Positions 7,266 to 59,652 of a stretch of 64,000 nt of DNA are shown here, piece by piece. The notes under the pieces were generated by a model that saw nothing but the letters and a program-made list of their open reading frames with translations, was not told the DNA's origin and searched no databases. Within the stretch, counting starts at the first letter, position 1; every line of letters begins with the position of its first letter. The position numbers and the translations under genes were made by a program. Source of the stretch: Linnemannia hyalina (Eukaryota; Mortierellomycota; Mortierellomycetes; Mortierellales; Mortierellaceae); assembly GCA_019671135.1 (NCBI GenBank), contig JAHRHY010000017.1, positions 1,288,181-1,352,180 on the forward strand, read 5' to 3'.

Positions 7266-7809
7266 ATAGGGATGACGAGTTAAGAGAACTATACAGTTGA
7301 AACTCCCCTATAGGACAATCCTCTATAGGATATTCCTATCCTATAGCATAATTTTTTTTTAAAAAAAGGTTCCATGCTCGCTCATAGGATATCCTATCGT
7401 TTTCTCCTATGGTGGTGATATGACTGGGAATCGCGTGTTTTCCCCAACATAGAGCCTCTTTTTGAACGCGTTAATTTGCGGTTTGTCCCTCTTTGCCAAG
7501 GAGGATGTCCACATCCTCCCAAGAGGGCATTTAACTCCCTCTTTCAAGAGGTTCACACAAACAAACAAAGATTTTGTACCTCTTTCACAGCCTTTATATG
7601 GCACTGTTGGTGATACAGCTCTACAAGCCAAAGATCAAATTGACAATTAGTGTGCAATTTGTTCCAATTTATGCACACTAGGGCATTGCCATTTGAATTG
7701 TTCTCTTCATTTTTTATGCATTGTTTTATCTGTTTATTATTAGAGGTGTACTATACGAAGTAAACAAAGAATGGTTTGTGGTAATTTTGTTTGAATGAGT
7801 TGGTGTTGG
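7266..7809. other. Intergenic stretch with two hairpins
   Basis: The first is an AT-rich palindrome near 7320-7345 (CTATAGGATA, 4-nt loop, TATCCTATAG) lying after TACAGTTGAAACTCC, which resembles a pogo/Tigger terminus next to a TA. The second is a strong hairpin at 7487-7527: CCCTCTT and AAGAGGG outside, GGAGGATGT and ACATCCTCC inside with a 2-nt loop. The inner stem recurs at 43650-43671. No gene seen. Confidence 0.5.
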
Positions 7810-8240
7810 TTAAAGTGCTGCTTTGAAAACTATGTTTCTGGTGTAATGTTCTTTGGTTGTTGTAAAGGGTGTTGTTGGCGTGTTTGAAGGTCGAAGCATT
7901 GTGGGAGCGTTAAGGATAAGGACCTTTAAGTTGTTAGGGTTTGAACATCTTGATAGTGCAATATAAAGTTGCCCATGTGAAAACACAGGTTGTTGTAGAT
8001 AGACACCTGTTGTTGTTAGCGTTTGTCCTTGCGCCTTGTTGATGGTAAGTGCAAAAGTAGGTCGGATTGGAAATTGCAAGCGCGTGAATTTAATTGGTGT
8101 GGAGCCGTCGTCTTTTGAGGAGAGTGGAATTCGTGGGATGAGAACGATGTTGCTAGTGAATGATCCTGCAATGATCTGTGCTTCTATAATGTATTCGCCG
8201 AGTTTTGTTACTTGTAGTCTGTGTTTTTTCTCGTGTTGGC
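7810..8240 (-). pseudogene. PIF1-type / Helitron helicase C-terminal remnant
   Basis: The minus-strand frame gives the end of a superfamily-1B helicase. A segment RLQVTKLGEYIIEAQIIAG is followed by FALTINKAQGQTL (helicase motif V region) and SHGQLYIALSRCSNP (motif VI region), then a short tail and a stop. In PIF1 and in Helitron Rep-Hel proteins these motifs close the ATPase core. An in-frame stop lies just upstream (near 8265), and the Walker A part and any Rep domain are absent, so this is a 5'-truncated relic. It ends about 170 bp before the left boundary of the giant palindrome. Whether it was a cellular PIF1 or a Helitron cannot be decided from the C-terminus alone. Confidence 0.75.
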
Positions 8241-8707
8241 TGAAGGATCACTTCTTCTGGTATCTCGATGTTATCGAGGTGGATCCCCTCGCTGTAGGTT
8301 CGCTCAGTGCTATCTCTTACTATGAGCAATTAGTTTATGTACGCTTGGTGCTTTGTGTTGCTCCAATCCGCATGTTTTTTGTTTGTTTAAATACTGTAAT
8401 AAACATACTGTATGCTGGGATTTTGGGCCTGCATACTCTCCAATGTGGTCATTTAAGATAACGTAATTAGGATGCTTTTCAATATAGGTTTATATGGTAA
8501 GAAATATGGTGGAAGAAAGCTGTATACACCACGACTTGAAATCACATATGTTCATAGAATGGTGGATGTGAAGTGTGAGACGAACAAAGTCTGTTTTTGG
8601 AAGATGAAAATACTGGAAACAAAGGAGCACTTGATTTTAAAGCTTCGAGTGCTGCAGTCACGGTTCAGGACGAATGGCGGCCATGAATGAAACATCGTGA
8701 AGATGGG

Positions 8708-9076
8708 CTAGGGTCGGCTTACTTTCTCGCAGCTCATTGTCTCCCCGTCCTTCACTGAAACGCCACCTAGAAATCCAACACAAACTTTGTACTTGCACGT
8801 ATCAATGCTGTCTTTCGGCATGATTCTGTTGCACGTGCCTTTGCACAACTGGCAGACTCGTCGTCCAATAGGATAGCGTATACCAGCAACGTCAAGCGCT
8901 TTCAGAATAACGGCGGTGGTCAAGACAGCAGTTGTGTGGGCCTCGGACTCGCCTAGGGTATCATTGAAGGCCGAAGTATACTTGTACAGATCTGCTGCGA
9001 GCGCCTTCGCATAGAAACTGCTGCTATCATGAAAGGAAGGCTCGATCTCATCGTCGACCGCTTCAACATCTACCAT
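8708..9076 (-). CDS. Small hypothetical cysteine-containing protein (left arm)
   Basis: A 122-codon ORF. The N-terminal half is acidic and helical; the C-terminal third has a cysteine cluster CQLCKGTC, then C-x3-VC and one more Cys (residues about 76-116), which could form disulfides or bind metal. There is no signal peptide at the chosen ATG; the frame is open further upstream, so the true start or an upstream exon may differ. I recognise no family. It lies 150 bp from the secreted protein gene at 9228-9671 on the same strand. An identical copy is at 24384-24752. Confidence 0.4.
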   Translation of the reverse strand: MVDVEAVDDEIEPSFHDSSSFYAKALAADLYKYTSAFNDTLGESEAHTTAVLTTAVILKALDVAGIRYPIGRRVCQLCKGTCNRIMPKDSIDTCKYKVCVGFLGGVSVKDGETMSCEKVSRP

Positions 9077-9227
9077 AGGCTTTCTGTCGCTGCAAAGTGC
9101 ACGGCCATGTGATTGGCCAGCGGCTCGCCTTATATGAAATTGTCAGAGTAAAATGCAGGCGTTAGAAATTTGATCGATTGCAACACTGTATACACATCAA
9201 TCTTGCCCACATTTCATCCAAGTTTGA

Positions 9228-9671
9228 TTACCATGTTTCACGCCATTCGTCACTACGAAACACAACGTCTGGAATTTGTAGTCCGTGAGGGATGAAGGAA
9301 AATGAAGGCTTGTACATACAAGAGTAAACTCCCATTGCGTCCGATCTCAGCCTTCCGCAAGCCCACTTTCCGGCCGCCTCCGAATAGTACCGCTTGCCGA
9401 AATCTCCACACATCGTGTCCGACTCCCGAATTCCATCGCGGCTCTCTAATTGGCAGAGGGCGTTAGCGCCAACAAGCCTGGCCTTGAAGTCGACATCAGG
9501 CAGGAAGCCTAGCTGTTCTGTAGCAAGGCCTCCAAGGATACCGTTCAGCAAGTTGCCAACTCCGTCGACAGTGCCTGCTATGGTTCCAAGAAGCTTGCCG
9601 AAGTTGAATGCTTCAGCGTTAAAGGTCAGGCACAGACAGGCCAGCAGAGTCAAAATCGCTCCGGACTTCAT
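9228..9671 (-). CDS. Small secreted cysteine-rich protein A (left arm)
   Basis: 147 codons. The start is placed at the ATG of MKSGAILTLLACLCLTFNAEA, a classic signal peptide with likely cleavage after AEA; the frame is open further upstream but only the signal start makes sense. A Gly/Leu-rich segment follows (GKLLGTIAGTVDGVGNLLNG). Next comes the pattern LCQ ... MCGDFGKRYY ... KWAC ... VYSCMYKPS, which is shared with protein B at 11202-11525. The C-terminus beyond KPS may be read-through of a short intron. Function is unknown; secretion and cysteines suggest an extracellular or effector role (inference). A TATAAAAA box lies about 230 bp upstream, and beyond it is the 74-bp minisatellite shared with divergent gene B. 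Confidence 0.65.
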   Translation of the reverse strand: MKSGAILTLLACLCLTFNAEAFNFGKLLGTIAGTVDGVGNLLNGILGGLATEQLGFLPDVDFKARLVGANALCQLESRDGIRESDTMCGDFGKRYYSEAAGKWACGRLRSDAMGVYSCMYKPSFSFIPHGLQIPDVVFRSDEWRETW

Positions 9672-10100
9672 TTTACGTAGGATGCTTAAGGAGTGGGATA
9701 GATATACAGTAATACGATGTGAGCTTTCTGAAAGGAGAATCTCGTACAGGACACACCGCAAAAACATTAAAAAAATCGGTCTTACATAGAGGAAAAGTTG
9801 GTGAAGTCTTGTAGTCGAAGTGTTTTTGTTGCAAAAGGATGATGGCCAGAGAATCAAGGTTGAATGATGAAATGGAAAGCCAATTCCGTTTCCGTTTTTA
9901 TACGTGATGAGTACTGCAGCCGATATGTACTGAGTATGTGCTACTGGTGCACATAATTTCACCAGATCCATACTTGCAGCATGCGTTTCTGACCATTGTC
10001 CGTTCGTAAGCGCTTTTTTCACTTGTCCTCTGTTATCTCTTCGTCCTTGCAGATCAGATGGCATAAATGGACGTGGGGAAGCATGGGCGCAAAGATGGAG

Positions 10101-10831
10101 AGTAGTCCTTCTTGGTGCATGAACCACAAACATTCATAGAAGTCCATGCCACAGCCTGAGAGCCAAAGCGAGAGAGTAGTCTTGCTTGGTCCATGAGTCA
10201 CAAGCATGCATAGAGGTTCATGCCACAGCGTAAGAGCCAGAGCGAGAGTGTAGTCCTGCTTGGTGCATAAACCACAAGCATGCATAGAGATTCATGCCAC
10301 AGCGTGAGAGCCAGAGCGAGAGTGTAGTCCTGCTTGGTGCATAAACCACAAGCATGCATAGAGATTCATGCCACAGCGTGAGAACAAAAGCGAGAGAGTA
10401 GTCCTGCTTGGTGCATAAACCACAAGCATGCATATAGATTCATGCCACAGCGTAAGAGCCAGAGCGAGAGTGTAGTCCTGCTTGGTGCATGAACCACAAA
10501 CATGGAGATTCATGCCACAGCGTGAGAACAAAAGCGAGAGAGTAGTCCTACTTGGTGCATAAACCACAAATATACATAGAGGTTCATGCCACAGCGTAAG
10601 AGTCAGAGCGAGAGAGTAGTCCTGCTTGGTGCATGAACCACAAACATGGAGATTCATGCCATAGCGTGAGAACAAAAGCGAGAGAGTAGTCCTGCTTGGT
10701 GCATAAACCACAAGCATGCATAGAGATTCATGCCACAGCGTAAGAGCAAAAGCGAGAGTATAGTCCTGCTTGGTGCATAAACCACAAGCATGCATAGAGA
10801 TTCATGCCACAGCGTGAGAGCAAAAGCGAGA
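10101..10831. repeat. 74-bp minisatellite, about 10 copies (left arm)
   Basis: Ten tandem units carry the landmark word GTCCTGCTTGGTGCATAAAC at a 74-bp spacing (about 10111, 10185, 10259, 10333, 10407, 10481, 10551, 10625, 10697, 10771). Two units are about 6 bp shorter (CATGGAG replaces CATGCATAGAG). Because 74 is not a multiple of three, the open frames across it are by-products and I do not call them genes. It lies between two divergent secreted-protein genes. The flanks (9672-10100 and 10832-11201) hold TATA boxes and otherwise nothing recognised. Confidence 0.93.
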
Positions 10832-11201
10832 GGGATCAAGCCCACATGCGATAAGGTGAATTGAAAGCACAGGACAAGTAAGAGGACAATCGCGATTGCA
10901 CAAGGGCCAAGAATACAAGGCATGTGGAGATTTTGTGAACAAGTGCACGGGTTCTGGAACTTATTTGCTCAGTGCCACCATAAAATAATCATCGCATATA
11001 AATGCAGTCTCTTCTGTTCCAGCATTTAATTTCAAATTCCAAGGCCTTCACCTCAGCTCCACCTCAAGCACTGAGTTTCTAAACCGCAACCAGCACATCT
11101 CCCACTCTCAGAGTAAGGCAGCGTGGCATTTCAAAGTATAATGATTATCCTTATGCGTGGAAGCTAATATTGTTTTACGATCGTACGTAGACTCACCAAG
11201 T

Positions 11202-11525
11202 ATGCGTATCAGGGCAACTGTCATATTGCTGGCTACATATCTCGCTAACCTCGGACAAGCTTATACAATCGGAAGACATGGCGGCAAACAAGTTACACAC
11301 ACCCGTGTTCTTCATACGGTCAGTTCCGTCCCGTATGCCTGCAACGGAGATACTGAATGCAAGAGGCTGCTTGCTGAAGCCAAATTGCTGTGCCAGAGGG
11401 ATGATGAGGATGCCGACTACTTGTGCGTCGAATATGGAGCCAAATGCCACCCTGGCGTAGAAGGATTTTGGGGTTGTGCAGTCGACACCGCGGATAGATA
11501 CTTCTGCGCATTTGTCCCAAGTTAG
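11202..11525 (+). CDS. Small secreted cysteine-rich protein B (left arm)
   Basis: 107 codons, starting at the Met of MRIRATVILLATYLANLGQA, a signal peptide with cleavage expected after GQA. The mature part has six or more Cys. Its C-terminal pattern LLCQ ... LCVEYGAKC ... FWGC ... YFCAFVPS lines up with protein A (LCQ, then Cys followed by an acidic/aromatic-Gly pair, then Trp-x-Cys, then aromatic-x-Cys, ending in Pro-Ser), so A and B look like diverged paralogues. It is transcribed away from A. A TATAAAT-like element lies near 10995-11003. Function unknown; a secreted effector-like role is inference. Confidence 0.65.
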   Translation: MRIRATVILLATYLANLGQAYTIGRHGGKQVTHTRVLHTVSSVPYACNGDTECKRLLAEAKLLCQRDDEDADYLCVEYGAKCHPGVEGFWGCAVDTADRYFCAFVPS

Positions 11526-12757
11526 ATAGAGCTGTAAATAGCTTAAATCAAATGGCCAGGCACTTCGAGTGCATTCCCTTGTCTAGTCTCTCAAGTAGCC
11601 ACTGCACTTGCAGGATTACATCGCATTTGTACATTTGCTCATTGAATGATGAACTTGAGGCTTGGCATCCAATTTGTGTTTGTGTTGCACATCATGGTGT
11701 ACTGACAAGAGGGTCACTTGTGAGAACAATAAAATCTCCGGTCCCCCGCTCAAAATGCTCTTCCTGTTGTCCACGAGCATGATAAGCAGGACTAACTTGT
11801 GGAGATCAGTGTCATACCCGACGATGATATATTTTTTTTTTATTTTTTTTTATTTTTTTTTTATTTTAAATGTTCATTCACTAATGTTCCGATCGGCCTT
11901 CAGACTCCTGTCCTTCATTCTCTTGATTCGTGGCCTCATTCATCACCACTTGCCCTTTTTTTTTCTTTTTTTTCTGTATGGACCGACATTGAATCATCCC
12001 CAGAATTGAAATGCCTGAATCGGCTGATCACTTAATTGGAGCGTATGCATCCTGGTTTTCCTTTTCAACTTGCGGGCTCTTTTTAGTTTCTAACTACCAT
12101 TCAACCTCCATGAGATACTCCTTCGAAAATCCTATACAACCTTCTATCAAAGTTTGGAGTTCCTACTCAAAGTTTTTTTTTGACTTGTATGCATGATTTT
12201 ATGTGGATTTGGCAAGTGGCAAGCTGTTTTTTTGTGCAGCCTCAATGCACTTTCTACAGGCAATCCGAAAGGTGATCTGTGTATAGGACATGGTAATGTT
12301 AGCAGCCTTGAGCTGTCAAGTGCGTGAGAAACGATTCTACGAAAAGGCACAGTGGAATACTTTCAGGAACCTGTTCAACGATGTCTGTTTTGTAACAAAC
12401 CCTTTTGTGCCTTCCACAGCATCCTTACACACGCCAACCTCTATTCCGACGCTGAAAGTGGTGTGTGCGAAATCAATCATCATACATACTACAGGAAGCG
12501 TTCGAGCAAGCCTAATGTATTGTCGATGGAGCATCGAACACGTTCATTGGAAAGACAAACAAACGCAACATAACCATGCTGAATTTTCGTCAGCGGCTAA
12601 TACCACTTTGCGAATGGATTTTGTTTATTGGTAGCTTTACAGCAGTCGTTGCAATAGAAGACAGAACGCTTGAGAGGCAGTGAGAGGATGAGACCAGTCA
12701 AAATAAGCGAGGAGAAAGTGTAAGATTTGGTTTATCTTGTTTTGATGATTGGGAGAT
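11526..12757. other. AT-rich non-coding part of left arm with a transposon-derived repeat
   Basis: It contains T8-11 runs separated by single A bases (about 11830-11870). A diverged repeat at about 11845-12263 is shared with 39340-39650; landmark on the right-arm strand: CTGTAGAAAGTGCATTGA and GGCATTTCAATTCTGG. No gene supported. Confidence 0.55.
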
Positions 12758-15700
12758 TTATTGCTCATCGCATTGTGAGGAGTCATTCGCCTTCAATTTT
12801 GATTTTTGAGATTGCTGGTCTTCAGAACGTCGCTTGTGTCCTTCTAGGTAGTCCAGAAAATCGACGTAGCGACGTAGGAAGATCTTCGGAAAGTTGTTGT
12901 CATCGATGCCGATGGACACACGTTGGAGGCCCTCAAGTTCGGTCTCAGGATCAGGCCAAACAACTTGGAAACTGACACCCTCAGCGGGGTAGGTGCTGAT
13001 GTATATCCCAATGGAACTGTAGTCCTATAATTGTAGTGGTTGCTGTTGATCGGATGGGACGCTTGTAGTCCAATCCTGTTGCCCCTGTTTTCGTCGCTTC
13101 TTCTGTTCCTTTTCCATCTTCTCCTGCCATTTTCCCCTGTACGGCGTGGCTGCTCACAGCTGCGAGCGCATTCTCGACATCGCTGGGCTCAAGAACTTGT
13201 CGCAATTTCAAAACCGGGCAAAGCAGGGTCACACGTCGCCATTGATCTTGACGAAAACATGACATCAAGTTCGGAGACATGAGGTGCTGGGAAATAAAAT
13301 GGAGGGATATCTTGATCGTTCTGTTTGGAGTCGTTCTCGACGTGCGCCTTCATAAGATGCTGTGTGGTGATGTTTTTCTGTGAGATGGCGAGTTTTGATT
13401 GCTGATCGCCGTATCCAACAGTCGTCACATCCTCGGCGAGCTGGTCCGGAAGAGAAGTGTTGGTCATCAAAGGCCATGACGACAACAGTCGACTTTTGAA
13501 CGTCTCGGGCGGCACGTCTCCCATGTGTTTTCGTGTACCGAAGGGTTGTCAAATTGTATCATCGCTCGTTCTGCCGCTGATACGAGTGACGCATCCTTCT
13601 CCCGGAAATAGTTGATGGCCGCTTTCGAGGCCAGTGGTTCATCGAGAACGGTTCTTGTGACACCTCCAAAGATCTTGATGCGACCGGACGCTGCCTCCGC
13701 TAGGTGCACTTCATTCTCAAGCACAGTCGACGGAGCGTCCAACAGATGACGGCGAAAAAAAAGAATAGTCCAAGCGATTCCTTGATAGAGGAGCATGAGG
13801 TGAAAAGCTCGGGATGGTTGGCGATCTTGGTCTCCAAAGTAGATTAAGTATTGAAAAAGAGGCAGTAGTACATTAGTAGAAAATAAGGTAGCAGCGAGCA
13901 GTGACATGAGAACATAGGACAATTCAAATGAGATGATAAGCAGGACAACTTACCGGTTGAATTCTCCGCACAAGTTTCCTCGGCGCTCTCGATCCTTCCA
14001 AGATGTAATCATGGTCTCGGTCTTGTCGATGGCAGCATTCCACTTCACGATCTCGAGAATTCCTTCGAATAGCCGTGACGATAGGTCTGAATCTGCCGGC
14101 GAGTCTTTTGTGCAACATCTCTACTGCGACGGAGGGTATAAGGAGTCCGCCTGTCTTTACGAATCGTCGTCCGGTAGCTGCTCCTTGAGGCGATCGACAT
14201 ACGCTTGTACCATATCGGCACCGGTCCATCCTGGAATCTCAATATATTTGGAAGGTGTTCGAGCCATACTCCTTGATGCCGTCGCCGCTGCTCATCGCTC
14301 AATGGAGAGTTCGGGTGCTCGGTCCTGTCCCACAGTAGACGATCGTAAGCTCATTTCGACTGCCTGCTCTTGGAAAACCGTTCAAGATCGGGGATAACAT
14401 TGGTCGCGGATTGGTTTCCAGGTAAGACGACTGGAATTTTGTACTGCCCTTGTCGCTCAGATCCTGGGCTTTGTCCACGACCAGCCTTAGCTTGGACTCG
14501 CTTGAGAAATTGGGATAGGCATGAGCAGCAAGACTCTTTCGCACTGAAAGAAGTTCGTGTCGGACAATAGGTCTCAATGCTGACTCGAATATCGTAAGTC
14601 CTTCCAGCTTGTTATAGAGTATCGAGAGCAGTTCTGAGAATACGTCTTGGAACATGTGAAGACAGACCTGGAGTAAGGCCCAACTTGCGCTGGAAAACGT
14701 CTGGCGGCAATCGGAGATCCGCAAACAGTATTTGAGGACCAAGAGTCGGGAGAGGAAAAGCAAAAGGGTCTTGTTGCATGCGAAGGCGGTGTTATGACCA
14801 GGACCTTGTTCCTCCATTGCTTCGGTGCCAATGGAATCGGGAAGTCGACTGAGATCGTTCAATCCAAGCTCATTCTTTGCCGCATTGAGATATAATCCCC
14901 ATTGAAGGCAGAGCATCCCTAACACCGAACGAGTTTTCCACATCCTACAAGATGGTAAGACATCAGGAAGTGTATGTTAGTCTACGGAAAGGCGAAAGCG
15001 CCGACATTGACAATGGATGTACAAACTCATGAAATGCAGCAAAGTACGTACCGGATACGCCAAATACCGGAAAGTCTTGTGATTGCATGTCCTCCATTCT
15101 TTCCAGTGGCATGTTCGATCTAAACTTTTCGGTGGAGCTGATAAATCCAAGAAAAAGAGCTCAGTCTCGCTTCCGCTTTTTTTGATGACGCCTCGCCGTA
15201 GGACTTTGGCAGCCGCTTAATTCCCTGTTGTCGTGGTAGGTAACGACTTTTCTCCATTCACGAAGCGTCCAGAAAGAGAGAGGCGGGCGAGCCAAGCGCG
15301 AAAAACTTGTTCTCGATTTTTGTTGATGTTGGCCCCGAGATCACCTGTTGAGAGATGAACCAGTTAGACAACGAAGCAATCATAACAAACAGGGAAGAGG
15401 GCAAGAAGCGGGGTCGACAGAACTTACCAGAGAGAGGGGTGCTGGGGCGAGATTGATCCGAGAGTTGGCTAGGGAGAGTAGGGGCTGGAGCCAGGGACAG
15501 GTGGAAGGACTATGTCAGTGCAATTGGATGAGAGGATAAGTTAGTGAATGCATAATGGACAGAATACATGTAAGGTGTGAATGAAAAAGCATGTGTGTTT
15601 GTGCATTACCTGGCGGAGGTCGCTGGACGATGCCGTGGGCCGTCTCTTTAGGTAGCTCCCAGGTAAGTGCTTTGGAAATACGCGTCGAGAGCTCGTCGTC

Positions 15701-15896
15701 CTCGTCCGTGATTGCTACGGAGACACGCTAAAGGGTGAGCTGGTCTGCATCGATGTCACTAGGCCATGGTCTTTTTGGCCATGATGAGGTTTGGAAGATC
15801 ATCAATAGTGTCGCTTGAAGGAATCTTGATAGAGAACGCATTGGAGGTATCCTCTCCATCAACAAGACAGAACAGGGTCAAGTGGTTGTCGGCCAT
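12758..15896 (-). pseudogene. Broken CRN-type effector gene with P-loop domain (left arm)
   Basis: This is the mirror copy of 17564-20702, transcribed outward from the central spacer. The N-terminus (from the ATG at 15896) is a CRN header, HLTLFCLVDGEDTSNAF. It is followed by a frame change and an in-frame TAG where the family has the Trp of LTLW, then the header end IVQRPPPG. Downstream pieces include a P-loop (Walker A) assembled across an intron, and several hundred residues of a recognisable CRN C-terminal region spread over all three frames. The multiple frame breaks and the nonsense codon argue for a pseudogene. CRN proteins of oomycetes and some fungi are effector or genome-conflict proteins with NTPase plus nuclease parts. 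Confidence 0.8.
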
Positions 15897-16021
15897 GGCG
15901 TTGCGAAGCTCGCTATGTGTGGAAGTGTGGAGGTGTGGAAAAGTGTTAAGTGAAAAAAAAGAGGAGGCCCTCCCACTTTTCTCTTTTTATTAATTCCACG
16001 CCAACCAGCCTTCAAAAGTGT

Positions 16022-17438
16022 AAAAAGAAATTAAACCCTTGGTAATATGAAACGTATAGAAGCGAGTCCACAAAATGAAAAGGCAAATAATAATAACCCA
16101 TCCAAACAGAAAGGAAGAACTGAGGAACTGACAAACACGAACCATTTTTTATCACTTCCACACCTCCACACCTCCGCACTATCCTAGCATCTGAATAAGG
16201 ACGCAAGCATGTGTGCAAACTGAATTCAGGGTTACAAACTATCTGGCAGATGAGCATCTTGTGCCTTTTCTTCGCCCGAACTACCATTGTGAGATTGAGC
16301 GTGCAGTTTCTGAGTAATTCGATTTTTTATTAACGCATACCTGTTTGACTGGCGAGGACCTATTTTGATGGTCTATTCCAAACGTACCCCTGTCATTTTC
16401 ACGAAGTGCCATGGCGGTTATAAGCGCCTTTCTGGCGGATGGATCTATGGTACGAAAAAATGAAAAAAAGATGGCAAGGAACAGGGACAAGGAAGAGAAA
16501 GGCGCACCCTGTCAGAGAACAAACAAGACAAACAGCAAAACATGCCCACATGCATACCATGGGGCGTCTCTCTATTTACTTTTTTCCTTCTGCCCTCCCT
16601 CTCTCTCTCATTCTACTTGTAAAACTCACCTTGCTCCCCTCGTCACTACTCTCCACCACAGTTAATCGTCATCTTCACCATCAGTCTTCCTGTCTCCCAT
16701 TACACCATACCTACATTACCACCTGTTGGTCTTCCAACATCTTTCCATCATCCAACGTTCTCTTTCACAGTTTTCTGTACCTTCTCCGCGCTCGGTCAAG
16801 GGCCCTTTGGCGTGCTTGTTCGTCTTGTACCTATCAAGTACCGAGCACCCGAAGCTTGGAGAGGTACAATCTTCGCGTCTATATGCCACCCCACATACCA
16901 CGTGTATTACCGTCGAGCACCTCCTAACCTCAACTTTAACCACTAGCCACTCTATCCGCTTAATTGTCGTTCGCCCATCCAGCTAAAACACAAAACACAC
17001 CAAAAAAATGCATCACTTAATGCGTTGCGAGTACTTGGACAATCGTATCTGCGTGCAAGAAGAACCTCTTCATATTCTGTTTAGCGCGTACCATCTGACA
17101 ATAACATGGTCATTTTCGTTTTCTAGTCTTCCAAGCATCTGCCCTTATCGGACCGATTTTCTTCTACAGCGGACAACCATTAACCGACACTCTGCATGCA
17201 CATACCACCCAGCACCCAAACACGCCAAGCAAGCAGGCAACAGCATCACCTCCAGCTCCTTTCCCATTGTGAGTTGTTTGTTCACTCAACTCCGCGGAAT
17301 ACCATTGTATTGCCCTATCATCATCTACATTGGCTCATCCGCTTTTTCTTTTATTTTCTTCTTTCATTATGCGATAGACCCTGCCTTCAATCTTTTTCGT
17401 ACCAATCCTGTCCAGACTATGAAAGGACTTTGATTTCC
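16022..17438. other. Spacer between the palindrome arms
   Basis: 1417 bp of sequence present once in the window. The left part contains TTCCACACCTCCACACC words that resemble the leader of the CRN copies. The central part (16560-16990) is CT-rich like a fungal 5' UTR. An ATG at 17008 in a good context (caaaaaaATGC) starts a short frame with splice-like signals near 17126, but the gene, if any, could not be modelled with confidence. Both CRN pseudogenes point away from this spacer, so it and the adjoining 125 bp on each side would contain their promoters. Confidence 0.6.
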
Positions 17439-17563
17439 ACACTTTTGAAGGCTGGTTGGCGTGGAATTAATAAAAAGAGAAAAGTGGGAGGGCCTCCTCT
17501 TTTTTTTCACTTAACACTTTTCCACACCTCCACACTTCCACACATAGCGAGCTTCGCAACGCC

Positions 17564-20500
17564 ATGGCCGACAACCACTTGACCCTGTTCTGTCTTGTTG
17601 ATGGAGAGGATACCTCCAATGCGTTCTCTATCAAGATTCCTTCAAGCGACACTATTGATGATCTTCCAAACCTCATCATGGCCAAAAAGACCATGGCCTA
17701 GTGACATCGATGCAGACCAGCTCACCCTTTAGCGTGTCTCCGTAGCAATCACGGACGAGGACGACGAGCTCTCGACGCGTATTTCCAAAGCACTTACCTG
17801 GGAGCTACCTAAAGAGACGGCCCACGGCATCGTCCAGCGACCTCCGCCAGGTAATGCACAAACACACATGCTTTTTCATTCACACCTTACATGTATTCTG
17901 TCCATTATGCATTCACTAACTTATCCTCTCATCCAATTGCACTGACATAGTCCTTCCACCTGTCCCTGGCTCCAGCCCCTACTCTCCCTAGCCAACTCTC
18001 GGATCAATCTCGCCCCAGCACCCCTCTCTCTGGTAAGTTCTGTCGACCCCGCTTCTTGCCCTCTTCCCTGTTTGTTATGATTGCTTCGTTGTCTAACTGG
18101 TTCATCTCTCAACAGGTGATCTCGGGGCCAACATCAACAAAAATCGAGAACAAGTTTTTCGCGCTTGGCTCGCCCGCCTCTCTCTTTCTGGACGCTTCGT
18201 GAATGGAGAAAAGTCGTTACCTACCACGACAACAGGGAATTAAGCGGCTGCCAAAGTCCTACGGCGAGGCGTCATCAAAAAAAGCGGAAGCGAGACTGAG
18301 CTCTTTTTCTTGGATTTATCAGCTCCACCGAAAAGTTTAGATCGAACATGCCACTGGAAAGAATGGAGGACATGCAATCACAAGACTTTCCGGTATTTGG
18401 CGTATCCGGTACGTACTTTGCTGCATTTCATGAGTTTGTACATCCATTGTCAATGTCGGCGCTTTCGCCTTTCCGTAGACTAACATACACTTCCTGATGT
18501 CTTACCATCTTGTAGGATGTGGAAAACTCGTTCGGTGTTAGGGATGCTCTGCCTTCAATGGGGATTATATCTCAATGCGGCAAAGAATGAGCTTGGATTG
18601 AACGATCTCAGTCGACTTCCCGATTCCATTGGCACCGAAGCAATGGAGGAACAAGGTCCTGGTCATAACACCGCCTTCGCATGCAACAAGACCCTTTTGC
18701 TTTTCCTCTCCCGACTCTTGGTCCTCAAATACTGTTTGCGGATCTCCGATTGCCGCCAGACGTTTTCCAGCGCAAGTTGGGCCTTACTCCAGGTCTGTCT
18801 TCACATGTTCCAAGACGTATTCTCAGAACTGCTCTCGATACTCTATAACAAGCTGGAAGGACTTACGATATTCGAGTCAGCATTGAGACCTATTGTCCGA
18901 CACGAACTTCTTTCAGTGCGAAAGAGTCTTGCTGCTCATGCCTATCCCAATTTCTCAAGCGAGTCCAAGCTAAGGCTGGTCGTGGACAAAGCCCAGGATC
19001 TGAGCGACAAGGGCAGTACAAAATTCCAGTCGTCTTACCTGGAAACCAATCCGCGACCAATGTTATCCCCGATCTTGAACGGTTTTCCAAGAGCAGGCAG
19101 TCGAAATGAGCTTACGATCGTCTACTGTGGGACAGGACCGAGCACCCGAACTCTCCATTGAGCGATGAGCAGCGGCGACGGCATCAAGGAGTATGGCTCG
19201 AACACCTTCCAAATATATTGAGATTCCAGGATGGACCGGTGCCGATATGGTACAAGCGTATGTCGATCGCCTCAAGGAGCAGCTACCGGACGACGATTCG
19301 TAAAGACAGGCGGACTCCTTATACCCTCCGTCGCAGTAGAGATGTTGCACAAAAGACTCGCCGGCAGATTCAGACCTATCGTCACGGCTATTCGAAGGAA
19401 TTCTCGAGATCGTGAAGTGGAATGCTGCCATCGACAAGACCGAGACCATGATTACATCTTGGAAGGATCGAGAGCGCCGAGGAAACTTGTGCGGAGAATT
19501 CAACCGGTAAGTTGTCCTGCTTATCATCTCATTTGAATTGTCCTATGTTCTCATGTCACTGCTCGCTGCTACCTTATTTTCTACTAATGTACTACTGCCT
19601 CTTTTTCAATACTTAATCTACTTTGGAGACCAAGATCGCCAACCATCCCGAGCTTTTCACCTCATGCTCCTCTATCAAGGAATCGCTTGGACTATTCTTT
19701 TTTTTCGCCGTCATCTGTTGGACGCTCCGTCGACTGTGCTTGAGAATGAAGTGCACCTAGCGGAGGCAGCGTCCGGTCGCATCAAGATCTTTGGAGGTGT
19801 CACAAGAACCGTTCTCGATGAACCACTGGCCTCGAAAGCGGCCATCAACTATTTCCGGGAGAAGGATGCGTCACTCGTATCAGCGGCAGAACGAGCGATG
19901 ATACAATTTGACAACCCTTCGGTACACGAAAACACATGGGAGACGTGCCGCCCGAGACGTTCAAAAGTCGACTGTTGTCGTCATGGCCTTTGATGACCAA
20001 CACTTCTCTTCCGGACCAGCTCGCCGAGGATGTGACGACTGTTGGATACGGCGATCAGCAATCAAAACTCGCCATCTCACAGAAAAACATCACCACACAG
20101 CATCTTATGAAGGCGCACGTCGAGAACGACTCCAAACAGAACGATCAAGATATCCCTCCATTTTATTTCCCAGCACCTCATGTCTCCGAACTTGATGTCA
20201 TGTTTTCGTCAAGATCAATGGCGACGTGTGACCCTGCTTTGCCCGGTTTTGAAATTGCGACAAGTTCTTGAGCCCAGCGATGTCGAGAATGCGCTCGCAG
20301 CTGTGAGCAGCCACGCCGTACAGGGGAAAATGGCAGGAGAAGATGGAAAAGGAACAGAAGAAGCGACGAAAACAGGGGCAACAGGATTGGACTACAAGCG
20401 TCCCATCCGATCAACAGCAACCACTACAATTATAGGACTACAGTTCCATTGGGATATACATCAGCACCTACCCCGCTGAGGGTGTCAGTTTCCAAGTTGT

Positions 20501-20702
20501 TTGGCCTGATCCTGAGACCGAACTTGAGGGCCTCCAACGTGTGTCCATCGGCATCGATGACAACAACTTTCCGAAGATCTTCCTACGTCGCTACGTCGAT
20601 TTTCTGGACTACCTAGAAGGACACAAGCGACGTTCTGAAGACCAGCAATCTCAAAAATCAAAATTGAAGGCGAATGACTCCTCACAATGCGATGAGCAAT
20701 AA
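17564..20702 (+). pseudogene. Broken CRN-type effector gene with P-loop domain (right arm)
   Basis: Header start ATG at 17564 (HLTLFCLVDGEDTSNAF). A frame change follows near 17700, then a TAG at about 17734 in the LTL(W) position, then the header end IVQRPPPG just before a GT donor near 17851. A clear intron 18409-18515 joins VFGVSG to CGKTRSV, forming a Walker A motif (GxxGxGKT), so an NTPase domain was present. The long frame 18516-19161 continues it. Later segments (19190-19510, 19640-20270, 20180-20480, 20455-20702) are homologous-looking but in shifting frames. The last frame ends at a TAA at 20700-20702. Not all frame changes fall at plausible splice sites. Lesions are identical to the left copy. 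Confidence 0.8.
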
Positions 20703-21934
20703 ATCTCCCAATCATCAAAACAAGATAAACCAAATCTTACACTTTCTCCTCGCTTATTTTGACTGGTCTCATCCTCTCACTGCCTCTCAAGCGTTCTGTC
20801 TTCTATTGCAACGACTGCTGTAAAGCTACCAATAAACAAAATCCATTCGCAAAGTGGTATTAGCCGCTGACGAAAATTCAGCATGGTTATGTTGCGTTTG
20901 TTTGTCTTTCCAATGAACGTGTTCGATGCTCCATCGACAATACATTAGGCTTGCTCGAACGCTTCCTGTAGTATGTATGATGATTGATTTCGCACACACC
21001 ACTTTCAGCGTCGGAATAGAGGTTGGCGTGTGTAAGGATGCTGTGGAAGGCACAAAAGGGTTTGTTACAAAACAGACATCGTTGAACAGGTTCCTGAAAG
21101 TATTCCACTGTGCCTTTTCGTAGAATCGTTTCTCACGCACTTGACAGCTCAAGGCTGCTAACATTACCATGTCCTATACACAGATCACCTTTCGGATTGC
21201 CTGTAGAAAGTGCATTGAGGCTGCACAAAAAAACAGCTTGCCACTTGCCAAATCCACATAAAATCATGCATACAAGTCAAAAAAAAACTTTGAGTAGGAA
21301 CTCCAAACTTTGATAGAAGGTTGTATAGGATTTTCGAAGGAGTATCTCATGGAGGTTGAATGGTAGTTAGAAACTAAAAAGAGCCCGCAAGTTGAAAAGG
21401 AAAACCAGGATGCATACGCTCCAATTAAGTGATCAGCCGATTCAGGCATTTCAATTCTGGGGATGATTCAATGTCGGTCCATACAGAAAAAAAAGAAAAA
21501 AAAAGGGCAAGTGGTGATGAATGAGGCCACGAATCAAGAGAATGAAGGACAGGAGTCTGAAGGCCGATCGGAACATTAGTGAATGAACATTTAAAATAAA
21601 AAAAAAATAAAAAAAAATAAAAAAAAAATATATCATCGTCGGGTATGACACTGATCTCCACAAGTTAGTCCTGCTTATCATGCTCGTGGACAACAGGAAG
21701 AGCATTTTGAGCGGGGGACCGGAGATTTTATTGTTCTCACAAGTGACCCTCTTGTCAGTACACCATGATGTGCAACACAAACACAAATTGGATGCCAAGC
21801 CTCAAGTTCATCATTCAATGAGCAAATGTACAAATGCGATGTAATCCTGCAAGTGCAGTGGCTACTTGAGAGACTAGACAAGGGAATGCACTCGAAGTGC
21901 CTGGCCATTTGATTTAAGCTATTTACAGCTCTAT
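20703..21934. other. AT-rich non-coding part of right arm with a transposon-derived repeat
   Basis: Mirror of 11526-12757. The diverged repeat occupies about 21197-21615 (CTGTAGAAAGTGCATTGA, GGCATTTCAATTCTGG, GGAACATTAGTGAATGA) and is related to 39340-39650. No gene supported. Confidence 0.55.
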
Positions 21935-22258
21935 CTAACTTGGGACAAATGCGCAGAAGTATCTATCCGCGGTGTCGACTGCACAACCCCAAAATCCTTC
22001 TACGCCAGGGTGGCATTTGGCTCCATATTCGACGCACAAGTAGTCGGCATCCTCATCATCCCTCTGGCACAGCAATTTGGCTTCAGCAAGCAGCCTCTTG
22101 CATTCAGTATCTCCGTTGCAGGCATACGGGACGGAACTGACCGTATGAAGAACACGGGTGTGTGTAACTTGTTTGCCGCCATGTCTTCCGATTGTATAAG
22201 CTTGTCCGAGGTTAGCGAGATATGTAGCCAGCAATATGACAGTTGCCCTGATACGCAT
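21935..22258 (-). CDS. Small secreted cysteine-rich protein B (right arm)
   Basis: Identical protein to 11202-11525: signal peptide MRIRATVILLATYLANLGQA, and a Cys-rich mature part ending YFCAFVPS. It reads toward the spacer in this arm; its promoter faces the minisatellite and gene A. On the minus strand a CATATAAATG box lies about 200 bp before the start. The perfect duplicate means expression of the two copies cannot be separated by ordinary short reads. Confidence 0.65.
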   Translation of the reverse strand: MRIRATVILLATYLANLGQAYTIGRHGGKQVTHTRVLHTVSSVPYACNGDTECKRLLAEAKLLCQRDDEDADYLCVEYGAKCHPGVEGFWGCAVDTADRYFCAFVPS

Positions 22259-22628
22259 ACTTGGTGAGTCTACGTACGATCGTAAAACAATATTAGCTTC
22301 CACGCATAAGGATAATCATTATACTTTGAAATGCCACGCTGCCTTACTCTGAGAGTGGGAGATGTGCTGGTTGCGGTTTAGAAACTCAGTGCTTGAGGTG
22401 GAGCTGAGGTGAAGGCCTTGGAATTTGAAATTAAATGCTGGAACAGAAGAGACTGCATTTATATGCGATGATTATTTTATGGTGGCACTGAGCAAATAAG
22501 TTCCAGAACCCGTGCACTTGTTCACAAAATCTCCACATGCCTTGTATTCTTGGCCCTTGTGCAATCGCGATTGTCCTCTTACTTGTCCTGTGCTTTCAAT
22601 TCACCTTATCGCATGTGGGCTTGATCCC

Positions 22629-23359
22629 TCTCGCTTTTGCTCTCACGCTGTGGCATGAATCTCTATGCATGCTTGTGGTTTATGCACCAAGCAGGACTAT
22701 ACTCTCGCTTTTGCTCTTACGCTGTGGCATGAATCTCTATGCATGCTTGTGGTTTATGCACCAAGCAGGACTACTCTCTCGCTTTTGTTCTCACGCTATG
22801 GCATGAATCTCCATGTTTGTGGTTCATGCACCAAGCAGGACTACTCTCTCGCTCTGACTCTTACGCTGTGGCATGAACCTCTATGTATATTTGTGGTTTA
22901 TGCACCAAGTAGGACTACTCTCTCGCTTTTGTTCTCACGCTGTGGCATGAATCTCCATGTTTGTGGTTCATGCACCAAGCAGGACTACACTCTCGCTCTG
23001 GCTCTTACGCTGTGGCATGAATCTATATGCATGCTTGTGGTTTATGCACCAAGCAGGACTACTCTCTCGCTTTTGTTCTCACGCTGTGGCATGAATCTCT
23101 ATGCATGCTTGTGGTTTATGCACCAAGCAGGACTACACTCTCGCTCTGGCTCTCACGCTGTGGCATGAATCTCTATGCATGCTTGTGGTTTATGCACCAA
23201 GCAGGACTACACTCTCGCTCTGGCTCTTACGCTGTGGCATGAACCTCTATGCATGCTTGTGACTCATGGACCAAGCAAGACTACTCTCTCGCTTTGGCTC
23301 TCAGGCTGTGGCATGGACTTCTATGAATGTTTGTGGTTCATGCACCAAGAAGGACTACT
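22629..23359. repeat. 74-bp minisatellite, about 10 copies (right arm)
   Basis: Mirror of 10101-10831 with the same unit order and the same two short units. It sits between divergent genes B (21935-22258) and A (23789-24232). Two tandem arrays keeping identical copy number and variant order is itself evidence for very recent duplication or conversion. Confidence 0.93.
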
Positions 23360-23788
23360 CTCCATCTTTGCGCCCATGCTTCCCCACGTCCATTTATGCC
23401 ATCTGATCTGCAAGGACGAAGAGATAACAGAGGACAAGTGAAAAAAGCGCTTACGAACGGACAATGGTCAGAAACGCATGCTGCAAGTATGGATCTGGTG
23501 AAATTATGTGCACCAGTAGCACATACTCAGTACATATCGGCTGCAGTACTCATCACGTATAAAAACGGAAACGGAATTGGCTTTCCATTTCATCATTCAA
23601 CCTTGATTCTCTGGCCATCATCCTTTTGCAACAAAAACACTTCGACTACAAGACTTCACCAACTTTTCCTCTATGTAAGACCGATTTTTTTAATGTTTTT
23701 GCGGTGTGTCCTGTACGAGATTCTCCTTTCAGAAAGCTCACATCGTATTACTGTATATCTATCCCACTCCTTAAGCATCCTACGTAAA

Positions 23789-24232
23789 ATGAAGTCCGGA
23801 GCGATTTTGACTCTGCTGGCCTGTCTGTGCCTGACCTTTAACGCTGAAGCATTCAACTTCGGCAAGCTTCTTGGAACCATAGCAGGCACTGTCGACGGAG
23901 TTGGCAACTTGCTGAACGGTATCCTTGGAGGCCTTGCTACAGAACAGCTAGGCTTCCTGCCTGATGTCGACTTCAAGGCCAGGCTTGTTGGCGCTAACGC
24001 CCTCTGCCAATTAGAGAGCCGCGATGGAATTCGGGAGTCGGACACGATGTGTGGAGATTTCGGCAAGCGGTACTATTCGGAGGCGGCCGGAAAGTGGGCT
24101 TGCGGAAGGCTGAGATCGGACGCAATGGGAGTTTACTCTTGTATGTACAAGCCTTCATTTTCCTTCATCCCTCACGGACTACAAATTCCAGACGTTGTGT
24201 TTCGTAGTGACGAATGGCGTGAAACATGGTAA
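23789..24232 (+). CDS. Small secreted cysteine-rich protein A (right arm)
   Basis: Identical to 9228-9671. The start is the ATG before KSGAILTLLACLCLTFNAEA. A TATAAAAACGG element is near 23558, about 230 bp upstream, between the minisatellite and the start. A GTAAG donor-like site near 23673 suggests the 5' leader may be spliced. Here gene A reads outward from the palindrome and is followed by the small ORF at 24384. Confidence 0.65.
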   Translation: MKSGAILTLLACLCLTFNAEAFNFGKLLGTIAGTVDGVGNLLNGILGGLATEQLGFLPDVDFKARLVGANALCQLESRDGIRESDTMCGDFGKRYYSEAAGKWACGRLRSDAMGVYSCMYKPSFSFIPHGLQIPDVVFRSDEWRETW

Positions 24233-24383
24233 TCAAACTTGGATGAAATGTGGGCAAGATTGATGTGTATACAGTGTTGCAATCGATCAAATTTCTAACG
24301 CCTGCATTTTACTCTGACAATTTCATATAAGGCGAGCCGCTGGCCAATCACATGGCCGTGCACTTTGCAGCGACAGAAAGCCT

Positions 24384-24752
24384 ATGGTAGATGTTGAAGC
24401 GGTCGACGATGAGATCGAGCCTTCCTTTCATGATAGCAGCAGTTTCTATGCGAAGGCGCTCGCAGCAGATCTGTACAAGTATACTTCGGCCTTCAATGAT
24501 ACCCTAGGCGAGTCCGAGGCCCACACAACTGCTGTCTTGACCACCGCCGTTATTCTGAAAGCGCTTGACGTTGCTGGTATACGCTATCCTATTGGACGAC
24601 GAGTCTGCCAGTTGTGCAAAGGCACGTGCAACAGAATCATGCCGAAAGACAGCATTGATACGTGCAAGTACAAAGTTTGTGTTGGATTTCTAGGTGGCGT
24701 TTCAGTGAAGGACGGGGAGACAATGAGCTGCGAGAAAGTAAGCCGACCCTAG
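24384..24752 (+). CDS. Small hypothetical cysteine-containing protein (right arm)
   Basis: Identical to the 122-aa ORF at 8708-9076. It has an acidic N-terminus and a C-terminal CQLCKGTC cluster. The frame is open upstream through about 24333 without another ATG in that frame, so a spliced upstream exon remains possible. No family recognised. Confidence 0.4.
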   Translation: MVDVEAVDDEIEPSFHDSSSFYAKALAADLYKYTSAFNDTLGESEAHTTAVLTTAVILKALDVAGIRYPIGRRVCQLCKGTCNRIMPKDSIDTCKYKVCVGFLGGVSVKDGETMSCEKVSRP

Positions 24753-25073
24753 CCCATCTTCACGATGTTTCATTCATGGCCGCCATTCGTCCTGAACCGT
24801 GACTGCAGCACTCGAAGCTTTAAAATCAAGTGCTCCTTTGTTTCCAGTATTTTCATCTTCCAAAAACAGACTTTGTTCGTCTCACACTTCACATCCACCA
24901 TTCTATGAACATATGTGATTTCAAGTCGTGGTGTATACAGCTTTCTTCCACCATATTTCTTACCATATAAACCTATATTGAAAAGCATCCTAATTACGTT
25001 ATCTTAAATGACCACATTGGAGAGTATGCAGGCCCAAAATCCCAGCATACAGTATGCGATATAAATGGAATGT

Positions 25074-25325
25074 TGTTACTCAGGGGAGAGGGTCGACGGC
25101 CGGAGTTGTAGGACCGCTGTTAAGTCCTCAATTGGTACGGAGGGGGGGGGGGGAGAGAGGTTGTAGGTTGGAGGGGGGGGGGAAGTGATAATAGCGTCCT
25201 AGAAGAATCACACGAAACGATACACTGCAGCGCGCCAGCGAAACTCTTGTCAATACTGCTCTCGTCCAAGAAGTGATGTGTAAAAGGACAAAGAGCAGAC
25301 AAGAGGGCTCGGCGCACTACTAATA
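25074..25325 (+). mobile_element. Short LTR-like repeat, copy 1
   Basis: It starts TGTTACTCAGGGGAGAGGG and ends GCACTACTAATACA next to the pogo element. It is shared, inverted, with 39897-40142. It contains two G-runs (about 25141-25153 and 25172-25182). Start TGTTA and end TAATACA look like solo-LTR ends, but I find no convincing target duplication. Pogo copy 1 is inserted at the TA of its last bases. Confidence 0.5.
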
Positions 25326-27823
25326 CAGTCGAAAATGGTTTTTGGGCCCATTTTACTAGTGAAAATGGGCCGATAAACGAAACAAACAGACTGAATTACC
25401 TCCATGAAAGAAGTATTCTAAAACTTGAAAACACATTCCCGAGTATATAGTGCACGTGAGCATTGACGCAAACCATGCACAGAGAAAGAAAAGGAAAGTC
25501 GTGTTTTATTCATGTCCATTCGCAACTACTTCAATCAACTCTTCATCCCTAACGGCCGTACAAGCACGCACAAGGTGTTTTACTGCTTTTCGGACCTCCT
25601 CCTTACTTCCTTGACCTCGTCCCCCACTCTGTCGCACTCGCTTGATACCGTCGATTGTGAGAACATCACTGTCTCCTGCCAAACGTTTCAGCGTCTCGAT
25701 AGTTCCATAGATATCTGTGTCTGCGATGGGTGAGCTTCCAGGATCCTCGTGGCTTGAGCAATCGCCAGTGCTTACTTGATGACCGCCCACGCTTTCACGT
25801 TCTCTTCCATCCTCATCCACTTGTTGTAGCTCCTCCTCGGCCTGCTCATCCCTGCTCTCTACCGCTCTGAAACCCACTACATTCGCTGGCCCAATCTCGG
25901 CGATGATATGTTCGAAATATGCCTTCTCCTGCTCTTTGTATCGTTCGTGCTGGGTGGACTGAGGCTTTATCTGCTCATCCTTAGTTGGCCGTCGTCGTCG
26001 AAGCTCCTCGCGCATTTCTGTTGGAAGGACAGGGGTTTTGGCGAAGCAGTTGCGCTGTGTGGAAGGTTTGATCTCACCCCATGCGTCTGGGATCAGTGTC
26101 CAAGCGCGCCCATTGGAGATAGTCGTAGTTTGGTCGAAGTTACGAGCAAGATATATTTCACGGCCAAGCTTCTCCAGAAACGCTCGTTTGAAAGCGCTGA
26201 TAACGCCGGCATTGGGAGGCTGGGCAACCGATGTCGAGTTTGTGGGTAGTCGCCGGATGCAAAGATGGTTCCAAGGAATTCCATGTTGATGGTCGCGCAT
26301 ATCGACATCATTGTGTGATCCTGCGGAATTCAGAAGGAGAAGAATTGGCTGTGAGAGCTCATCATCCAACTGTTCCAGCCAGCGTACGAATACATCGCCG
26401 GTCATCCATCCTTTCTTCGTTCTCACCATGATCATCTTCGAGGCCGCCTCTTCTTCAACGTCTGTAGGGATGTGTTCGCCTAACGGGTATCAGGCAGTCA
26501 TAAAGGTTAAGATCTGAAAAAGAATGCTGTCGTTTGTAGCACTGTCATACATATAGTATATTACCGATAACCACTGGCCTCATGACTGTTTAGTCTTGGC
26601 CAAGGCGAGAGATGTGCCAGAGGCATTGATGCAAAATAAAATGGATACTTTGCAGTCCCGGAGAGCCTTGGCGCCAGATTTGAAACGCGATGTCGTGCAA
26701 GATTTGGTGTCCAGTTCCTTTACATACATCCCAGTCTCATCGCAGTTGAAGATAGTGTCGGGAGTGTACTGGGCGCAAAGTTGGCGAATTTCAACGAGCT
26801 CGGGCTCGATTGCCTCCAAATCGACCGATCCCGCCTCTCCATGAAGCTGACAATACGAGATACGATGCTGTTTCCTGAGAGAGTCGAACCAATAGGCCGA
26901 AAAAGATAACGGCACCTCAGATACAGTGCTACCCGAATCGTCCTTGAGATCGCAAAGAACCATACATGCGAAATGAGCTGCCTCCTTCATCATCTTGCCC
27001 GTCACAGGAACATTCTTCTTGCGTTGATCGTGCAGCCAGTAGAGCAGGGCCTGCTCGATCACTAGACCCTTCCGCTTGACGATGTAATGAGCGCCATCGG
27101 GAAGTGTCTTAGCTGCAGCACGTAGCTATTGATTGACATATTGTAAGTAACAGGAATCTTAATAAATTACTTTTAATGTATACAGCTCTTAGCAGCCTGT
27201 TGAAAATAATAATATACCTTATCTTCTCGGCTCAGCATGCGTTCAAAGGTTTTTCTTGGAAGGTTGACTCCTATCGCAGGTCCATAGGAGCGGGGGAAAA
27301 GCTTGAAAAATGGGATGTTCTCCTTCCGTTTTTCGAGATAGTGATATATGTCCAGCAGCTCGACTTGCGCTTGTAGGGAGCGAGAGACTCTTGCACGCGG
27401 AATCTCGAATTTGTCGGCAGTAGGGAATACAATGATAGCAGCCATGTCATCGTTCCTAGCGCTGTTTAAAAGGTCGTTGTATCGCAGTCGGCGAGTGGCG
27501 TTGATCTCTTCAAGCTATCGGCTGGTGTATGTTTTGTCCTTCTTGGAGGTGAGCTGAGGAGGGGCGGGTTTCTGCTTTTGGGCTCGCGCCTTAACCTCAT
27601 CCGCGAACGAGCGGCGTCGACGGTTGACTTTATTCGTTGCCATGGTGAATGACTGGTTACTGAGGTTACAAGATGCGTCCATGGTGAATGTAAGAGAGAT
27701 GTAAACTACACATCAGTGCTCACGTGCACTATATACTCGGGAATGTGTTTTCAAGTTTTAGAATACTTCTTTCATGGAGGTAATTCAGTCTGTTTGTTTC
27801 GTTTATCGGCCCATTTTCGACTG
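25326..27823 (-). mobile_element. Pogo-type DNA transposon, copy 1 (2498 bp)
   Basis: TA dinucleotides flank both ends (25324-25325 and 27824-27825). The termini are CAGTCGAAAATGG and its complement ending CGACTG, with inverted repeats of roughly 110 bp (through the CACGTGAGCA word). The left TIR carries an extra segment (GTTTTTGGG then CCCATTTT, 7-nt loop, AAAATGGG hairpin) that the right TIR lacks. TA target duplication plus CAGT ends is diagnostic of Tc1/mariner-pogo. Confidence 0.9.
25506..27682 (-). pseudogene. Pogo/Jerky-type transposase, inactive (copy 1)
   Basis: The order from the ATG at 27682 is: basic N-terminus; an in-frame TAG (also present in copy 2); a helix-turn-helix region; an intron; a CENP-B-type HTH (LLYWLHDQRKKNVPVTGKMM); and a DDE domain. 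The first catalytic Asp is intact (FNCDETGM). The second is Asn (LLLNSAGSHND) where copy 2 has Asp. The third is Asn (QPPNAG) where copy 2 has Asp (QPLDAG). A one-base deletion relative to copy 2 near 26580 breaks the frame (LAKTKQS then stop). A 300-residue C-terminal part is open to 25506. The protein would bind the TIRs and cut and paste the element; this copy cannot. Confidence 0.88.
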
Positions 27824-59627: not shown

Positions 59628-59640
59628 CGGATTTTTTTTT

Positions 59641-59652
59641 AAGAGGGGAAGG
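59641..59652 (+). other. Polypurine tract of gypsy element 2
   Basis: AAGAGGGGAAGG immediately before the LTR start; primes plus-strand DNA synthesis in LTR retrotransposons. Confidence 0.8.

Follow-up and report, generated by a model that had tools for sequence, protein, structure and literature searches.

The final 64 kb of contig C9 (1,352,180 bases) of the soil fungus Linnemannia hyalina (strain SCG-10), hereafter the window, contain a palindrome whose 7.6-kb arms are alike base for base and lie in unlike surroundings. How could such a structure arise? Our data suggest that a broken end probably folded back, primed the copying of the neighbouring 7.6 kb and was then joined to unrelated DNA. 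The window palindrome is, moreover, one of a recurrent class, at least nine members of which were found in this genome. The assembly searched comprises 50 contigs and 51.51 Mb; the published description gives cornfield soil as the origin, PacBio Sequel reads assembled with HGAP4, 52 contigs, 51.56 Mb and publicly available raw reads (PMC8444964; reads under SRX11233978).

Geometry and breakpoints of the window palindrome

The left arm (8404–16021, + strand) and the right arm (17439–25056, − strand), 7,618 bases each, are exact mirrors of each other, with 0 mismatches over 7,618 mirrored positions, no indel, no N and a symmetry sum of 33460; BLAST aligned them over the same 7618 bases at 100% identity without gaps. 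The two comparisons agree on the boundaries, the symmetry and the absence of a net indel given in the initial annotation, in which the term "near-perfect" understates the matter, since the arms are perfect as assembled. The 1.4-kb spacer described there is 1,417 bases long (16022–17438) and present once, and the differing surroundings are borne out as well: across the axis of the palindrome the outer flanks are unlike each other, and so are the two halves of the spacer. By the rule of three, zero differences in 7,618 positions place the arm divergence below about 0.04%, provided that the assembly is right. Full-length matches of the whole arm and of a 601-base arm piece were obtained in just these two places of the 51.5-Mb assembly. 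For an arm piece of 752 bases (10972–11723), a third copy lies on C14 and differs by 16 mismatches (98% DNA identity), so that this piece had been duplicated earlier.

The left outer edge of the palindrome is a breakpoint. A helicase-bearing repeat (7677–8401, − strand) is truncated 2 bases before the left arm; the matching of its other copies (95% on C48 and C3, 88% on C15, and an 85% piece on C6) ends at 8400–8401, and those on C48, C15 and C6 run on past the break point into other sequence, which in the C48 and C15 copies includes a foldback repeat at a distance of about 0.5 kb. A candidate empty site was rejected: when 1.5 kb of the part that the helicase repeat lacks was sought in the window, nothing matched beyond the right arm, and the matches obtained, in the arms and at 39 kb, were foldback-like pieces only.

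The right end of the spacer also breaks away from its relatives. The spacer belongs to a sequence family with most of its members grouped on contig C33 (main matches of 68–80% at 12 fetched loci, 10 of the 12 on C33). In four loci the BLAST similarity to this family stops at 17404; after a gap, a AAGGACTTTRRTTTCC-like sequence is common to 17438, and the loci then diverge from the window, as judged by eye. Because these four relatives run on past 17438 with sequence absent from the window, we place a break at the arm edge (junction 17422–17439), a breakpoint defined against unrearranged relatives rather than the ancestral site and, over the final 34 bases, by eye. A stretch of 1.1 kb from the missing part of the C33-type sequence was sought in the window and not found. 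At the right outer edge, 17 bases from a long terminal repeat (LTR)-like repeat (25074–25326), the breakpoint status could not be judged; 40 of 110 candidate places for this repeat were scored, which puts its number at about 40, and the starts of the seven copies read agree to within one base. Relatives of the spacer form a cluster at C33:2.57–2.83 Mb, where the single frame scanned had no Pfam match.

The two edges of the spacer share a short homology in inverted orientation, 16027–16040 pairing with 17423–17437 (AAGG(A)CTTTGATTTC versus AAGG-GTTTAATTTC) in an imperfect match of 14–15 bases. Among random pairs, about 1% score as high when windows of 15–20 bases are compared, and 2–5% when the windows are of 25–30.

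Palindromes elsewhere in the genome

Candidates for further palindromes were matches that paired at the same score on opposite strands in mirror-symmetric positions, and they arose from four of 11 genome searches; given that the queries were window sequences, the Crinkler (CRN) family and three other families, the sample is biased and the number found is a minimum. The nine large inverted duplications, the window included, lie on seven contigs and are denoted here by contig and approximate centre in kb where needed. Their sampled arms are identical or nearly so: no arm difference was seen in the sampled bases of seven, C10:188 has one and C23 has more. Crinkler-type effector-like genes are carried by five of the nine, and the outer sequence is unlike across the axis in the window and in all seven other palindromes probed outside the arms.

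The palindrome of C1 (centre 62,204) has 21 mismatches in 3,925 mirrored positions, all within 24 bases of the centre, and its arms are identical at 6 kb and unlike at 8 and 10 kb. On C15 (centre 739,082) there are 18 mismatches in 2,083 positions, all within 44 bases of the centre, and the arms, identical at 3 kb, end near 4 kb. C9:639 (centre 639,186; 47 mismatches in 2,187 positions, all within 64 bases) has arms identical at 3.0 and 4.5 kb and unlike at 6 kb, while those of C10:1261 (centre 1,261,261; 51 mismatches in 1,061 positions, all within 80 bases) are identical at 1.9 and 5 kb and unlike at 8 and 12 kb. The arms of C23 (centre 3,203,890), of about 3 kb, show patchy identity and are unlike further out. 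Three more palindromes were studied by probes only. C33:112 (centre 111,923) is identical over 200 bases at 3 kb and has an asymmetric centre of about 190 bases. C10:188 (centre 188,938) and C13:231 (centre 231,389) are non-palindromic at the centre, and probes further out revealed wide-spacer pairs: in C10:188 the centre is unlike over 1.9 kb, the arms are identical at 2.4 and 3.9 kb and end near 7.5 kb, the last probe showing a single mismatch, and the sequence is unlike at 8.9 kb; in C13:231 the two sides are not identical at 5 or 7 kb, agree fully in the probes at 9 kb (473 bases) and 10.5 kb (201 bases), and have a 70-column match of 74% at 12 kb.

Less similar pairs are present as well. 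An older and smaller inverted CRN pair at C13:309 kb is 95% alike over 482 columns, and a head-to-head CRN pair at C33:3014 kb, which may consist of ordinary relatives, shares short pieces only (74–89%). The locus C13:310 kb was rejected as a palindrome, being a lone foldback repeat. Equal-score, opposite-strand pairs at C1:239139-240592 and C13:547278-613446 could be more inverted duplications.

A foldback repeat occupies the centre of four of the nine palindromes. That of C15 is a copy of a self-complementary 450-base repeat (738858–739307), with self-matches in both orientations; of 118 candidate places 40 were scored, and 39 of these are further copies, 38 of the 39 with equal score; many copies lie within 70 kb of contig ends, and the repeat is perhaps subtelomeric. 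The C1 centre is 81–83% alike to it. The centres of C10:1261 and C33:112 belong to a second foldback family, also found alone at C13:310 kb and beside the C48 helicase repeat. No foldback repeat was seen at the centres of the wide-spacer palindromes (the window, C10:188 and C13:231).

A CRN promoter lies at the centre in two of the nine: the centres of C9:639 and C23 are about 220–280 bases upstream of head-to-head CRN domains, the former holding the motif GGCGCNNNAATTACGTCACCGA and the latter, by eye, a diverged form of it. When up to 2 mismatches are allowed, the motif occurs at 164 places in the genome, versus 0 for the reversed pattern. Some of these places, by eye among the matches listed, precede Crinkler domains by no more than 500 bases, and the motif may be a promoter element held in common. 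Several CRN genes share this motif; it is missing from the window palindrome and so does not explain the window case.

The association with Crinkler genes was compared with other families. The Crinkler family (PF20147) is large: 109 matches came from 125 scored candidates, and they include several head-to-head pairs that differ in their degree of similarity. Five equal-score mirror pairs are among the 109, all five head-to-head. By eye, no mirror pair was seen among 64 cytochrome P450 matches, nor among the listed part of the 155 protein kinase matches. NDC10_II gave one pair within 50 kb among 69 matches, namely the C33 palindrome; its copies are often near-identical, and the count leaves out C47 copies that score equally but lie hundreds of kb from each other. 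The NDC10_II pair means that palindromes extend beyond CRN genes, with none seen in P450s and kinases, two conserved families. Equal-score Crinkler matches at C33:3041148-3041384 and C23:3169258-3169494, with LTR-like repeats flanking at similar spacing, are perhaps a segment duplicated between contigs.

Fold-back copying as the probable origin, and its rivals

Fold-back copying at a broken end would proceed as follows in the window. The break would have fallen at the right end of the spacer; the 3' end would have looped 1.4 kb back and paired through the imperfect homology of the spacer edges; synthesis would then have copied the arm, and the new copy would have been joined to unrelated DNA. 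Since breakpoints are found at two opposite kinds of arm edge, we propose that either a fragment was captured or the spacer was flipped. The copied piece could have been the broken, folded fragment itself, captured later between the two flanks, or the copy could have been made in place, with arm-to-arm recombination then flipping the spacer; alternatively, the assembler could have inverted the spacer by mistake. In four other palindromes (C15:739, C1:62, C10:1261 and C33:112 kb) the central foldback repeat would have acted as the hairpin.

This reading is supported by the absence of arm differences between unlike flanks, by the inverted arms around a single-copy spacer, by the break of the spacer from its family at the right arm together with the cut of the helicase repeat at 8401, and by the foldback repeats at these four centres. 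The recent inverted duplication, offered in the initial annotation as an "ultra-recent" one, is the best supported reading of the window. Several points weigh against fold-back copying. The case rests on assembled sequence and on the rearranged site, which shows neither the original arm nor the true microhomology. The left outer and right inner edges both look like breakpoints, which a single simple fold-back in place fails to explain without capture or flip. The spacer-edge homology, which counts in favour at about 1% by chance for windows of 15–20, is imperfect and becomes statistically weak with wider windows, and it is not directly followed by the copied sequence. BLAST similarity of the spacer to its family ends at 17404, the likeness of the final 34 bases being judged by eye only, and the window's own centre has no foldback repeat.

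Among the rivals, the one that survives best, and which we still consider unlikely, holds that the palindromes are old and that their arms are kept identical by arm-to-arm gene conversion, in which case identity says nothing about age. The seven palindromes without a sampled arm difference would fit it, and conversion, one of the options of the initial annotation, is hinted at in C23: the arms there agree throughout from the spacer edge out to a distance of 1,153 bases from the centre; between 1,153 and 1,952 bases lie 17 differences in clusters, and the outermost part is more divergent. The probability of such a placement by chance is 0.015–0.05 if clusters are taken as events (5–18 events, depending on the clustering) and 2e-5 if single differences are counted. 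As the window arms have no differences, a patchy conversion pattern cannot show there. Against lasting conversion, the C13:309 kb pair, at 95%, shows that inverted pairs do decay, and the short pieces of the C33:3014 kb pair point the same way unless they are ordinary relatives. The identity of the window arms could reflect youth and conversion equally, or be inflated by read correction.

That the palindromes are artefacts, either palindromic reads from missed SMRTbell adapters or repeats misassembled, is improbable in our estimate. A missed adapter would yield the order A-R-R'-A', with equal flank on both outer sides. This is contradicted by the unlike outer sequence of the window and of seven other probed palindromes (the 70-column match of 74% on C13 being the nearest approach), and the missed-adapter geometry was rejected as without fit. 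The adapter strings used have no full-length match in the window or in the loci scanned, and a 9-base fragment of the adapter occurs in three loci. In favour of an artefact, four of the nine palindromes are no more than 65 kb away from the end of their contig, and with PacBio Sequel data assembled by HGAP4 (PMC8444964) read correction may have made the arms alike. A precedent that we also count on this side comes from the rotifer A. vaga, whose reported palindromes were not found in A. ricciae, scaffolding errors being raised for some breaks in collinearity in the part of that report drawn on here (PMC5916493). On the other side, C23 retains arm differences, so read correction did not erase all of them; the centres are foldback repeats in four palindromes and lie upstream of CRN genes in two; and whole-genome amplification is unmentioned in the assembly paper (PMC8444964). 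Together with eight further palindromes, whose centres, where read, consist of genomic sequence, the unlike outer flanks make the assembly artefact envisaged in the initial annotation unlikely.

Two inverted copies placed by transposition or dispersed-repeat recombination rather than fold-back would agree with the mobile-element-like sequence at or near both outer edges (the helicase repeat, the LTR-like repeat and a pogo element), but this is highly improbable, as by eye neither a target-site duplication nor a terminal repeat marks the arm edges, for which reason the arm was rejected as a transposon, no third full-length arm copy is among the matches scored, and the right inner edge, as far as seen, is not at an element end.

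Taking fold-back copying as the preferred reading for the window, a broader and tentative proposal, which we are inclined to doubt more than to believe, is that foldback repeats and Crinkler promoters act as standing fold-back sites that repeatedly make kilobase inverted duplications, so that head-to-head effector-like pairs would at first be identical and would undergo arm-to-arm exchange for some while before decaying.

Gene content, known systems and significance

The suggestion that the window palindrome "duplicates effector-like genes" holds in part. A Crinkler-family gene is present in both arms, and its reading frame is interrupted in both. The N-terminal stretches of the domain lie head-to-head at 15759–15881 (− strand) and 17579–17701 (+), each scoring 40.3 bits against a family cut-off of 24.6, a partial assignment that covers profile positions 1–40 of 106 with one stop inside. 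A Crinkler-type gene body at 12678–15632 (−; mirror 17828–20782, +) holds short open frames only and has DNA matches of about 67–87% on C13, C5, C17 and more, some adjoining CRN domains. Selection for Crinkler dose was rejected as weak here, the interruption in both arms making gene dose a poor reason for this copy.

Two short arm frames look secreted, as judged by eye. One, at 9228–9671 (−; mirror 23789–24232, +), encodes 147 amino acids and has two database matches, from L. hyalina itself (KI688_004874, 100% identity across 80% of the query) and Mortierella sp. GBA39; the other, at 11202–11525 (+; mirror 21935–22258, −), contains cysteines and had no database match at E 0.001. Pfam gave one weak match on arm frames, below its cut-off, and transfer RNA and Rfam scans of the window were empty. 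The ten-copy minisatellite of the initial annotation measures 10.0 copies of 74 bases at 10098–10832 (mirror 22628–23362), and one side of a genome-wide foldback repeat, with matches of about 74–77% that often form inverted pairs, lies at 11858–12293 (mirror 21167–21602). Outside, a pogo/Tc5-like transposon (25324–27818, −; DDE_1 and HTH_Tnp_Tc5) flanks the palindrome. A second, rearranged copy, 98–99% alike and split by other sequence, lies at 55139–58313. An LTR-like pair, 93.5% alike and 4,102 bases apart, spans 57017–61614, with a third fragment at the contig end (63933–64000).

The following comparisons draw on portions of the published reports. Human fold-back inverted duplications with a disomic spacer resemble our palindromes in the inverted copy, the kilobase-scale spacer (766–70,466 bp, median 3,428), perhaps the short inverted homology at the spacer edge and, in some cases, the joining of other DNA beyond; they are large, mostly terminal copy changes in patients (PMC3907307), whereas the fungal palindromes are kilobase-scale, interstitial and recurrent in one genome, that of the window being identical over the full arm. 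In yeast sae2 or mre11 cells, inverted duplications induced by double-strand breaks likewise have a central inverted repeat made perfect and secondary joins outside, and sae2 clones turned an imperfect inverted repeat into a perfect palindromic duplication (PMC10622511). Those cases are laboratory strains under selection, in contrast to a natural isolate that retains several copies and, in the window, has no repeat at the centre. In single-stranded DNA, interaction is possible between inverted repeats separated by as much as 30 kb (PMC10164571). Taken together, the spacer, the breakpoints and the centres fit the fold-back priming of the human and yeast work (PMC3907307, PMC10622511).

Palindromes of mammalian and willow sex chromosomes also have gene-bearing arms, on average more than 99% identical in willow, and a kilobase spacer (PMC7023750). 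The fungal arms are shorter, no sex chromosome is known in the fungus, and conversion is at most suggested by the sequence; the sex-chromosome analogy of the initial annotation is without support in this genome. The soil organism Folsomia candida has 11 inverted-duplication palindromes in one genome, which differ in being collinear gene blocks with a wide range of synonymous divergence (Ks), foldback repeats being unmentioned in the part of that report used (PMC5490193). For Linnemannia and Mortierella, no report of large palindromes was among the literature matches listed.

Human disease and yeast repair mutants have already provided examples of fold-back inverted duplication. A series of such palindromes in a natural genome, ranging from complete identity down to a likeness of 95% and in part centred on foldback repeats or promoters, would permit the study of both their formation and their lifespan, and would also let one ask whether palindromes feed the expansion of a large effector-like family.

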